The position numbers were made by a program, and so were the translations under genes. The notes beneath the pieces were generated by a model that saw only the letters and a program-made list of their open reading frames with translations, was not told the origin of the DNA and ran no database searches. From a virus: DNA of 23,165 bases. Positions 14,485 to 17,020 of this stretch are shown one piece after another. How positions within the stretch are numbered: position 1 is the stretch's first letter; each line of letters opens with the position of its first letter. The DNA lies in the IMG/VR virus record IMGVR_UViG_3300047551_001421, positions 1 to 23,165 of that record. One strand, 5' to 3'.

Positions 14485-15735
14485 TTACCACACACGATAG
14501 GAGGTTTTGCCCAGGCTTTCTGGTTTGGCGAGGTTGAAGGTTTGGAGGCATAGGTAGCCCAGTGCGTCGAAGGCGTGGTCGACGCCTAGGTTTTTGTTGG
14601 GTAGGCCCGTTCCAGGTGCGTAGGTCAGGGTGCGGAGGGATTTGATTAGTTCTTTGCACTTGGGGTTGATGAAGAGGCGGCGGGTTCCAGATGCGTCCAG
14701 TAGGGCGGTGTTGACGCAGGTGATCTTGTCGCGGATTTTCCAAGGGTTGCGGGGGCTGGATACCGTGAAGCCGGATTTGCGCAGGATGTTGTGGTCGGTG
14801 GCTCCAACGCCGCTTGTTTTGCGGGCGCCACCTGTGGGGTCGGGGCAGGCAATAATGCGGCGTTCCACGCCGTAGCGGGTTTGGATTTCTTCGCAGAGGT
14901 CCCAGGTGGTGGCGCCGCCGGTCATGATGATTTCGTCGAAGACCCAGAGCACGTCGCCTTTTTTCACTGCGCAGACGGCGCTCATTGGGTCCACGTTGAA
15001 GTCAACGCCCAATAGGAGGGGTAGGACGGGGAGGTCTTGGACGGTTTTGTCGATGTTGTCGTCCGCGAAGCTCACGGCGACCAGGCCGCTTAGGTTTTCG
15101 AAGCTGGCCTCGAATTCTTGGCGGAAAGTGCGCGGATCCAGCTGGCCGCGGGCGGCTTCGATTTCGTCTGGTGGGACGTTGTCGCCGTCAATCGTCGTGA
15201 ATTGCCACCGCTGCCAGTCGTTGTCGCCTTCCTCGCAATAGCACCAGAGGTCATAAAACCAGCTGGCGGTGCCGTCCGGGGTGGAAATGAATAGTGCCCA
15301 GCCTTGTTTGTCCGCCAAAGCGGGGCGGATCACCTCGAACCACACCTCGGCGTCCATAAATGCGGCTTCGTCAAGGACAACGCCCGCCAAACTGCGGCCG
15401 CGGAGGGCCATGGCGTTTTCGGTGCCCTTTAATTCGATGGTGGAGCCGTTCACCAGCTCAATCTTGAGGTCTGTTTCGTTCTTGGATTTGATCCAGGCTT
15501 TCGGGACGAGGCGTTTCATCACCTTCCAGGCAATGTCTTTTGCCATCCGGTATGTAGGGGCGGCATAGAAAAAGGTTTCGCCCGGCCTTTCGATCGCCCC
15601 ACGCAATAACTCGATACATGACAGATAACTTTTGCCGAACCGTCGGCCTGCTACCAATACTCTGAAGCGTTTTCGGCTGGAAAATACTTGGCCCTGGGCG
15701 TAGCGAAGGGTGAGTGCTCCAGCAGAATCGGGCAT
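14485..15735 (-). CDS. terL: Terminase large subunit
   Basis: This 416-residue protein is the ATP-driven packaging motor and headful/site nuclease. Walker A is AGRRFGKS (29-36), Walker B is GVVLDEA (118-124, with D122 and E123), and the coupling motif is ISTP (150-153). The C-terminal RNase H-like nuclease domain shows LLGVDFNVDP (D245), CPDP near 297-300, and VDHAFDALGY (D386, D390) as the likely metal-binding acidic residues. The length is normal for a compact terL. The ATG at 15735 lacks a close Shine-Dalgarno. It is the first structural-arm gene after the noncoding locus at 15.74-16.07 kb and precedes the basic mini-proteins and portal. Confidence 0.95.
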   Translation of the reverse strand: MPDSAGALTLRYAQGQVFSSRKRFRVLVAGRRFGKSYLSCIELLRGAIERPGETFFYAAPTYRMAKDIAWKVMKRLVPKAWIKSKNETDLKIELVNGSTIELKGTENAMALRGRSLAGVVLDEAAFMDAEVWFEVIRPALADKQGWALFISTPDGTASWFYDLWCYCEEGDNDWQRWQFTTIDGDNVPPDEIEAARGQLDPRTFRQEFEASFENLSGLVAVSFADDNIDKTVQDLPVLPLLLGVDFNVDPMSAVCAVKKGDVLWVFDEIIMTGGATTWDLCEEIQTRYGVERRIIACPDPTGGARKTSGVGATDHNILRKSGFTVSSPRNPWKIRDKITCVNTALLDASGTRRLFINPKCKELIKSLRTLTYAPGTGLPNKNLGVDHAFDALGYLCLQTFNLAKPESLGKTSYRVW

Positions 15736-15928
15736 TTTTAGCGGTAGGGGTACCTTCTAGGGTATTACAGGAATCGAACCCCTGCCCCGGTGTAGTACAG
15801 AAGAAAGAATTGAGAATGTGTCAGTAGGTTCCCTGGGTGGCGTCCCGCCCCACGCGATCGCGGACCCTGCCCCCTAGTACACGTGTATTGTGTTACAGTA
15901 TGTTACGATTCTCGCGGTCCGGTGTACT
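15736..15928. other. Noncoding stretch upstream of terL with short operator-like words
   Basis: No gene is seen here. The stretch holds a tRNA T-arm-like segment (15768-15784), a HIP1 site GCGATCGC (15854-15861), a perfect palindrome TACACGTGTA (15878-15887), and TTACAG/GTACAG words at 15763, 15793 and 15891. The minus-strand reading of the last contains TACTGT (a possible -10 for leftward transcription of terL), but I see no matching -35. Confidence 0.5.
15854..15861. repeat. HIP1 palindrome
   Basis: GCGATCGC is the highly iterated palindrome typical of many cyanobacterial genomes. Only one copy was seen in this window, so it is weak support for a cyanobacterial host and may also mean the word is avoided in the phage. 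Confidence 0.6.
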
Positions 15929-15945
15929 GCTGTGCTATAGTACAG
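15929..15945 (+). promoter_or_regulatory. Extended -10 promoter for a rightward short RNA
   Basis: GCTGTGCTATAGTAC carries TG-C-TATAGT (extended -10; hexamer 15936-15941), with a predicted start near 15946-15948. No good -35 lies 16-18 bases upstream. It matches, in 13 of 15 positions, the minus-strand promoter candidate at 16281-16298, which supports both. Confidence 0.55.
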
Positions 15946-16067
15946 GCACGAGGGGAGCGGACCACTCGCAAAACTGAACCGCCGTGGAACGGGACACACG
16001 ACACGTAGAAACCGAGTCCAACAAGGCCTGACTAAGCCTGGATGCGGGGTTGCCCCTCGCCTTTTTT
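15946..16067 (+). ncRNA. Candidate short rightward RNA (about 120 nt)
   Basis: Between the extended -10 at 15936-15941 and the terminator at 16044-16067 there is no convincing reading frame; the best is a GTG frame of about 15 codons. The transcript would begin GGCACGAGGGG and end CCCCTCGCC plus six T. The CGAGGGG near the 5' end (15949-15955) is the exact complement of CCCCTCG (16053-16059), so the ends could pair and break the terminator stem, a switch-like arrangement. If read through, it would be antisense to the membrane-HTH gene and its upstream neighbours. I do not recognise the RNA family; the conserved core motif of cyanobacterial Yfr1 (ACUCCUCAC) is absent. Confidence 0.45.
16044..16067 (+). 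terminator. Rightward terminator of the candidate RNA
   Basis: The stem GCGGGG / CCCC-T-CGC (16044-16060, one bulged T, about 3-4 base loop) is followed by six T (16062-16067). It works only on the + strand. Its presence is the main argument for a rightward transcript in a region where all flanking genes run left. Confidence 0.65.
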
Positions 16068-16070
16068 GTG

Positions 16071-16262
16071 TCACGCCGCGAGCAGTCGTTGCACGGTGGA
16101 GCGGCTGCAGCCGAGGCGATCAGCGATGGCCTGTTGCGTCAGGCCGGCACGGCGCCAGCGTTTTGCGCGTTGTTGCCGGGATTCGCTGGCCCATGCCAAC
16201 ACGATGAGGGGAAGGAGAATCAGCGCCAGCAGGATCGCGGCGGCAGTGGTGACAGTTGCCAT
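16071..16262 (-). CDS. Membrane-anchored helix-turn-helix mini-protein
   Basis: This 63-residue protein has a hydrophobic segment at about 6-24 (AAAILLALILLPLIVLAW), a basic stop-transfer stretch (RQQRAKRWRR, 29-38) and a C-terminal helix-turn-helix GLTQQAIADRLGCSRSTVQR (40-59), like the DNA-binding end of resolvases and Hin-type invertases. The positive side places the HTH in the cytoplasm. ATG at 16262 lies about 16 bases after a predicted start site, with an extended -10 at 16286-16294. It may tether DNA to the membrane or act as a tiny regulator of the adjacent promoters. No recombinase catalytic domain is present. It could be a remnant of a larger protein, but the clean start and promoter argue otherwise. 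Confidence 0.7.
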   Translation of the reverse strand: MATVTTAAAILLALILLPLIVLAWASESRQQRAKRWRRAGLTQQAIADRLGCSRSTVQRLLAA

Positions 16263-16280
16263 GGTGTGGCGTGTTGTTCG

Positions 16281-16298
16281 CTAGTATTGTAGCACAGC
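16281..16298 (-). promoter_or_regulatory. Extended -10 promoter of the membrane-HTH gene
   Basis: On the minus strand GCTGTGCTACAATACTAG holds TG-C-TACAAT (5 of 6 to TATAAT with a TGn extension). The start would be near 16279, 16-17 bases before the ATG. The -35 position holds no consensus; instead a GCCGC/GCGGC inverted repeat (16302-16316) and an AT-rich tandem repeat (16321-16340) lie upstream, as in activator-dependent promoters. Confidence 0.6.
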
Positions 16299-16301
16299 AC
16301 A

Positions 16302-16340
16302 GCCGCGGGATGCGGCCATACTGTAATACTCTGTAATATC
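16302..16340. promoter_or_regulatory. Inverted repeat plus 10-bp tandem repeat upstream of the membrane-HTH promoter
   Basis: GCCGC (16302-16306) and GCGGC (16312-16316) flank the -35 position. Next comes CTGTAATACT CTGTAATATC (16321-16340), two 10-base units matching at 8 of 10 positions and lying at about -42 to -61 from the predicted start. The one-helical-turn spacing suits a regulator dimer or an UP element. Confidence 0.45.
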
Positions 16341-16348
16341 AGCAGAAC

Positions 16349-16495
16349 TTATCGGCCGAGCACCAGGAGCCGGCATTCTGCCGTGGTGCGTCCGGCAGAC
16401 TCACACTGTGCCAAGCGTTTCGAGTTATCGGCGCCCATAGCGAGCACCGCACAAGCGGTAAGCAGGGCGGCAAGGGTGAGTAGGCGGTCAGTCAT
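16349..16495 (-). CDS. 48-residue membrane protein or lipoprotein
   Basis: This short protein begins MTDRLLTLAALLTACAVLAM, giving one basic residue and a hydrophobic segment from 5 to 20, then a hydrophilic tail with a Cys pair (RLAQCESAGRTTAECRLLVLGR). LTAC at 12-15 fits a lipobox, so Rz1-like lipoprotein processing is possible; a simple membrane anchor or cleaved signal peptide is equally possible. I chose the ATG at 16495 over a GTG 12 codons upstream. It follows the small terminase gene by 51 bases and precedes the membrane-HTH promoter. No holin or endolysin is visible nearby, so a lysis role is only a suggestion. Confidence 0.6.
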   Translation of the reverse strand: MTDRLLTLAALLTACAVLAMGADNSKRLAQCESAGRTTAECRLLVLGR

Positions 16496-16546
16496 GGGGA
16501 GTCTTGGTGTGACTTGACCCCATTGTTGCACACTATCGGCCAGGCG

Positions 16547-17020
16547 TCAAGGCAGCCGCTTGTCTTCAACCACGATCGAAAGCGAGGGAGTGCCCAGCGC
16601 AGCTTGCGTCTCAATTGCCGCCTCGCCTAGGTGAGCGCCAAGGTCTTTTAGTCCCAGCATGGCCACTTGCAAGTTGCCCTTGCTGATGGCTTTGTTGATC
16701 AGCCGTAGGCGCATACCTTGAAGACGCGAAAGCATGGCCTCACGATCTTTCTGCCAATCCTCTTCGTTCCACTTGCTGACCACACGCCAATCCATCCAAG
16801 CGGTCTTTTCGCTGATGCTTTCTCTAGAAGCGTGATCTAGAACCAGCTGTCGTGTCGTCAACCCTTCCAGTTGGCGTCGATACAAACGCCGCTGGCGTTC
16901 TTCAATAACCGCGTTCGGGTTCCGTTTGCCATAGCAACCCAGCGGATGTTTCGCCTTTTTATCCTCAATCTCCGCCGACACTTCCGGCGCTTCGTTGTTA
17001 GCTTCCGGATTGTCCGACAT
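16547..17020 (-). CDS. Probable terminase small subunit
   Basis: This 157-residue protein starts with an acidic leader (MSDNPEANNEAPEVSAEIED) and then HPLGCYGKRNPNAVIEERQRRLYRRQLEGLTTRQLVLDHASRESISEKTAWMDWRVV, which looks like a helix-turn-helix. A long helical C-terminal half follows (LSRLQGMRLRLINKAISKGNLQVAMLGLKDL). This layout (HTH, then oligomerising helices with a repeat-number-like segment) is common in phage small terminases, which bind the packaging site and feed DNA to TerL. It lies 0.8 kb upstream of terL, separated by the small membrane genes and the RNA locus. The assignment is by pattern; an unrelated DNA-binding protein is the alternative. Confidence 0.65.
   Translation of the reverse strand: MSDNPEANNEAPEVSAEIEDKKAKHPLGCYGKRNPNAVIEERQRRLYRRQLEGLTTRQLVLDHASRESISEKTAWMDWRVVSKWNEEDWQKDREAMLSRLQGMRLRLINKAISKGNLQVAMLGLKDLGAHLGEAAIETQAALGTPSLSIVVEDKRLP

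Follow-up and report, generated by a model that had tools for sequence, protein, structure and literature searches.

The put RNA of HK022 is short, consists of hairpins only and acts in cis, and the phage carries two such sites, one for each early operon. The packaging RNA of phi29 is about 120 nt long, structured and encoded by a single gene per phage. Lambdoid morons are independent promoter–gene–terminator units set between conserved genes, and the genes that they carry usually encode proteins.

Conserved structured RNAs are also known from T4-like cyanophages, where wcaG, manA and PhotoRC-II (PMC2864571) and glnA and abiF (PMC9964418) are linked to metabolic genes (PMC2864571, PMC9964418). 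These are conserved cyanophage structures that usually lie in 5' UTRs, as is common in the family described here, and the RNA that we describe has no Rfam match. CfrI of cyanophage S-PM2 is, by the account cited in PMC12197685, an antisense RNA to psbA; on that account it resembles our RNA as a cyanophage non-coding RNA transcribed against neighboring genes and differs from it in that the antisense position of our family is confined to one lineage, with the fold conserved rather than a complementarity.

From sequence comparison, we conclude that the stretch between terL and a gene for a membrane helix-turn-helix (TM-HTH) protein in a viral genome fragment encodes a genuine structured RNA that has start and stop signals of its own. 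Like put, it is structured, forms the start of a phage transcript and has a proposed action in cis; unlike put, its family has two pseudoknots and mostly occurs as a single copy, often with an AUG close behind it and, in the fragment at hand, with a terminator. It differs from the phi29 RNA in having no consistent tie to packaging genes and in having relatives of its carrier that do without it. It shares with morons its presence or absence between conserved genes and differs from them in that the product would be an RNA.

The locus beside terL and its signals

The window, by which we mean the whole stretch of 23,165 nucleotides that was analyzed, holds the following features at this locus:

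14485 to 15735, − strand: terL, a leftward ORF
15888 to 16073, + strand: cassette of promoter, RNA and terminator; approximate borders from the comparison with empty sites, junctions placed by eye
15891 to 15907, + strand: tandem TGTTAC repeats with 10-bp spacing, 5' of the promoter; a possible operator, speculative
15933 to 15941, + strand: extended −10 element TG-C-TATAGT, from the sequence and the family alignment of upstream regions
15948 to 16067, + strand: the RNA, about 120 nt long, with both ends predicted, the 5' one by the promoter and the 3' one by the run of six T
15949 to 15968, + strand: P1 hairpin, CGAG 15949–15952 with CTCG 15965–15968; 94.7% of cells paired
15957 to 15982, + strand: pseudoknot 1, P1 loop GCGG 15957–15960 with CCGC 15979–15982; 100% of cells paired
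15983 to 16005, + strand: stem A, CGTG 15983–15986 with CACG 16002–16005; 99.4% paired
15992 to 16019, + strand: stem B (pseudoknot 2 with stem A), GGAC 15992–15995 with GTCC 16016–16019; 98.8% paired
16025 to 16038, + strand: P3 hairpin, GGC 16025–16027 with GCC 16036–16038, loop CTGACTAA; GC/CG covariation
16044 to 16067, + strand: P4 hairpin, 16044–16049 with 16055–16060, plus T6; the predicted intrinsic terminator here, with a covarying stem
16071 to 16262, − strand: TM-HTH protein of 63 aa, hydrophobic at the N-terminus and with an HTH at the C-terminus (Pfam HTH_23, E 4e-8)
16349 to 16531 and 16547 to 17020, − strand: further leftward ORFs from the ORF listing

An earlier note on this DNA had proposed that a short RNA, about 120 nt long, is transcribed rightward here between a promoter and a terminator of its own. 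Its description of the letters was accurate: the extended −10 is present, a + strand terminator stem at 16044–16060 is followed by six T at 16062–16067, the roughly 120 bases between them hold no convincing protein, the flanking ORFs all run leftward and CGAGGGG (15949–15955) is the exact complement of CCCCTCG (16053–16059). Taken alone, promoter, terminator and complement are weak evidence. Promoter-like sites in the window region are about as frequent as in shuffled sequence, and the promoter scan omitted this one; terminator-like sites outnumber those in shuffles by a factor of only about two; and the single-sequence folding energy of the RNA is no better than that of shuffles (z = −0.37), a measure that is uninformative here because a minimum-energy algorithm cannot form pseudoknots. 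The comparative evidence is decisive and lifts the RNA above chance, with homology, a family-wide promoter position and terminators in sister contigs all supporting the proposed short RNA.

A covariance model of the family scores 81 bits (E 3e-24) at 15981–16060, the window copy itself being among the sequences from which the model was built, and the same model finds no second copy in the window, where the next best place scores 8.5 bits. ARAGORN calls no tRNA or tmRNA gene in the window. On the terL side, a stretch resembling a tRNA T-arm, GGGGCAGGGGTTCGATTCCTGTAATACCC, lies on the − strand at 15766–15795, about 31 nt upstream of terL; it is also present in the displayed terL relatives and is called by neither ARAGORN nor Rfam. 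Conserved boxes, GGTTCCCT and then ACCCTGCCCCC, lie upstream of terL at about 15827–15875, the first of them recurring in 72 of 83 terL relatives at a varying distance.

Homologues and a covarying double-pseudoknot fold

Of 50,697 phage records searched, only Synechococcus phage S-CBS3 gave a high-scoring related place, which is intergenic and unannotated and has 80% identity to 15948–16055 (E 1e-16), and that alignment ends almost exactly at the proposed borders of the RNA; a match in S-CBS1 was weaker. Three pattern scans of IMG/VR gave 84, 25 and, in the last, at least 120 stretches, a few of them chance matches. In all, the family is found in more than 120 IMG/VR contigs as well as in S-CBS1 and S-CBS3. 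Family statistics below draw on 145 instances, which come from 143 loci plus the window. Copy number is one in 34 of 35 IMG/VR records and one each in S-CBS1 and S-CBS3. The named carriers are all Synechococcus phages, that is, viruses of photosynthetic bacteria; the host of the window's own phage we infer.

The family looks phage-specific, because a pattern scan of 84,980 bacterial and archaeal genomes yielded no convincing copy and because nothing in Rfam matches. Three pattern matches among those genomes were rejected as chance, scoring 11–13 bits with the covariance model against 80–102 for true members and having no P3 or P4, and matches in a plasmid collection were likewise chance only. 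At gathering thresholds, the whole window matched none of the 4,227 families of Rfam 15; 15900–16100 at E ≤ 10 and six homologous loci at E ≤ 0.1 also gave no match.

Two alignments point to one compact fold. The core alignment (40 sequences) supports four helices, namely stem A, stem B interleaved with it, P3 and P4: pairing holds in 98.4% of cells, both sides change at 10 of the 16 pairs, and all 500 shuffles stay far short of this. The full-length alignment (21 sequences, 19 distinct) adds P1 and a pseudoknot between its loop and 15979–15982, with 98.9% of cells paired, double-sided changes in 11 of 24 pairs and no shuffle of 500 as good. When partners are slid by one to three columns, pairing falls to 19–41% in the core and to at most 39% in the full-length alignment, controls that flatter the fold because the structure was drawn up after the sequences had been seen; kinship among the sequences also inflates the covariation counts. 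Despite that inflation, several independent pair types are seen in stem A and likewise in stem B. In the 40 sequences, stem A has double-sided changes at all four pairs, and two pairs of stem B vary (AU/CG/GC and GC/UA/AU). Pseudoknot 1 shows compensatory GC/CG/UA and CG/GC/AU, and the stem of P4 occurs as GCCGG/CCGGC, CCAGG/CCTGG and GCGAGG/CCTCGC. P1 is nearly invariant, and its support comes from pairing, not covariation. Together, the alignments define a predicted double-pseudoknot architecture of P1, a pseudoknot between the P1 loop and the linker, the H-type pseudoknot of stems A and B, P3 and P4.

The comparison across homologous loci that the earlier note had suggested as a check therefore upholds an RNA fold and its promoter position and goes against the competing end pairing that the note had seen in the two complementary ends. 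Among 128 instances tested, only the window, L049 and L055 have the 7-nt complement, and in the remaining 125 it is 2–4 nt long; homologous phages thus lack this pairing and keep the RNA itself. Covariation pairs the 5' CGAG locally with CTCG at 15965–15968, and the P1 loop with 15979–15982, instead of with P4, and the long-range pairing would disrupt both P1 and P4, two helices conserved in the family. The end complement is best read as a by-product of the P4 sequence of the window lineage.

Some members swap the 5' module for different ones and keep the core, and by comparison of members the leader RNAs are modular. A second recurring module, GCCACAAGCCnGATA..GCGCCC..GGATTCTCCGCT, stands in place of the 5' hairpin module in L003 (S-CBS1), L089 and L103 and is appended after P4 in L032, L043, L046, L082, L104 and L126. 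Record L097 has three promoter–leader units about 430 bp apart at 1332–2251, the third consisting of the 5' hairpin module only, followed by an ATG.

Leaders in most phages and a stand-alone cassette in one lineage

In 80 unique upstream regions, the −10 box occupies −12 to −7 counted from ACGAGG; 90% of them have A at −11, and 90% have T at −7. Because this distance is fixed, the 5' end of the RNA is predicted to lie within 1–2 bases of 15948. The arrangement recalls put, a site at +1 of phage transcripts, in that the −10 box stands 7–12 nt before the RNA in these 80 upstream regions. Tandem repeats of the TGTnAC kind occur 5' of 36 of 92 family promoters against 3.4 in shuffles, a count confounded by relatedness; repeats resembling the TGTTAC tandem of the window are also present in L048, L139 and L168.

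In most phages, the RNA has the signature of a 5' leader of small accessory genes. An ORF of at least 38 codons starts within 60 nt in 68 of 95 distinct downstream stretches, and in 63 of these 68 the AUG lies 17–24 nt after P4. The ORFs belong to 12 sequence families, mostly small hydrophobic proteins. C makes up 50% of the spacer between P4 and the AUG, A 32% and G 5%, and no Shine–Dalgarno (SD)-like match occurs in it; at other start codons of the same contigs the figures are 26% G and 21% SD-like. Part of the constant spacing could stem from common descent of the leader together with the first codons. A conserved fold directly 5' of start codons, as expected of a cis-regulatory leader, is thus found in the family and not in the window. 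Automatic ORF maps are noisy at this G+C content, and we used them only for well-supported genes and not for strand-level statistics.

The RNA is retained across contexts: adjoining terL or portal in about 20 contigs, within the leftward early gene block and far from terL in S-CBS1 and S-CBS3, and antisense beside terL in the window. The TM-HTH gene is convergent with the RNA in the window and is a sense gene shortly 3' of it in many other phages; of 143 loci, 59 have a relative of it in sense no more than 600 nt downstream. An obligatory two-part system of RNA and TM-HTH gene can be ruled out, as the gene is undetected in 70 of the 143 loci.

In the window lineage (five records, with two of three terminators coming from a simple scan), the RNA is opposite in strand to its neighbors and is followed by a terminator. 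The window, L048, L049, L055 and L139 have TGTGCTATAGTACA at the promoter in common. The terminator is P4 itself plus T6 in the window, L049 and L055 and a separate one in L139; L048 has its own, read by eye as GGGCCGCTC ATA GAGCGGCCC TTTCG. Separately from this lineage, a terminator also follows the RNA in L004, L007 and L017.

This unit appears to have been inserted. None of 80 sampled contigs with a terL 85–97% identical to that of the window has the RNA beside it, in a non-exhaustive sample from which records very close to the window were excluded. In L162, L163, L197, L212 and L225, the sequence upstream of terL joins the 3' end of the TM-HTH gene directly, and relative to such empty sites the window holds about 185 extra bases. 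Two of the terL relatives, L168 and L169, have the same promoter in the same place, 200–340 nt upstream of terL, with a different RNA and its own terminator (ATGGGGCGGACGGAAGCACCCCGGCGCAAGCC...); its 5' module is related to that of L134, and its core pattern was found in these two contigs only. The core of L139 is identical to that of L020, where the RNA sits in another context. With its own promoter and terminator, and present or absent between conserved genes, the window unit behaves like a moron with a putative RNA product, a reading that we base on the empty sites, the replacement RNA of L168 and L169 and the core identity of L139 and L020.

Possible modes of action

We propose that the family is a sigma70-transcribed phage RNA of about 115–120 nt that would serve as a factor-binding leader in cis and, in its window form, as a small RNA in trans, a proposal that we consider about evenly balanced between right and wrong. 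It builds on computed results, namely homology, the predicted fold, promoter position, the AUG distance in most phages and the insertion of the window cassette beside terL. The fold would be a putative receptor for a factor, such as the ribosome, an RNA-binding protein or a ligand, that host or phage supplies. In the leader form it would influence the expression of small accessory genes in cis, and would most likely do so at the start of translation, because the AUG distance and the G-poor spacer alone are constant among differing genes. The free RNA of the window lineage, ending at P4, would be a trans-acting small RNA on the same factor. In a narrower version, which we think distinctly unlikely, the family would be a new class of viral RNA whose leader promotes an SD-independent start in bacteria, the fold and the unstructured C/A-rich spacer of constant length recruiting or positioning the ribosome for any gene that comes next and the free RNA of one lineage using or blocking the same factor.

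The stand-alone units of promoter, RNA and terminator in several lineages could also mean that the RNA is a moron-like small RNA that acts in trans everywhere, mostly co-transcribed and then processed out, and targets a host or defense component. Its retention in unrelated contexts, its exchange as a module and its absence from cellular genomes would fit such a role, which we nevertheless find unlikely, as most copies have no terminator and their tight AUG spacing and unstructured spacer are leader-like.

By analogy with put, the transcript might instead modify RNA polymerase in cis through its folded 5' end, allowing readthrough of terminators in accessory or early operons. The RNA starts at +1 of its promoter, it lies in the leftward early block of S-CBS1 and S-CBS3, and L004, L007, L033 and L059 have a terminator between the RNA and the first ORF. 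Antitermination predicts no selection on AUG spacing, however; most records have one copy rather than one per early operon; and the window, L048 and L139 offer no sense gene, the terminator of the window being the RNA's own P4. We therefore judge it unlikely.

The earlier note had further suggested that readthrough of the terminator would yield RNA antisense to the genes at 16071–17020, among them the likely terS, and that this, with the mutually exclusive end pairing, could be a timing switch for packaging genes. The orientation and the 7-nt complement are present in the window, and the minimum-energy fold uses that pairing; with the pairing so rare in the family, the cassette absent from all 80 sampled terL relatives and the RNA of most other phages placed in sense before small accessory genes, at loci of quite another kind, such a switch is very improbable. 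A packaging RNA comparable to that of phi29, considered because of the terL and portal neighbors and matched in length (about 120 nt), structure and single copy, is the least credible reading of all, given that the S-CBS1 and S-CBS3 copies lie in the early region, that terL adjacency is not general and that the 80 sampled relatives package without the RNA.

We found no prior description of this RNA in the open-licence papers searched. As far as those papers and Rfam show, the family is new, and its kind, a structured phage leader or small RNA, is already known; its mode of action is not established as new. The isolated phages S-CBS1 and S-CBS3 carry the RNA, which opens the proposal of a factor-binding leader to tests in culture. 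One fold is found both as a leader at a constant distance from unrelated start codons and as a candidate small-RNA gene, and the family therefore offers a natural experiment in the passage from cis-acting leader to trans-acting RNA. More broadly, it adds a large family of elaborately folded RNAs to the cyanophages, whose gene control is poorly known.
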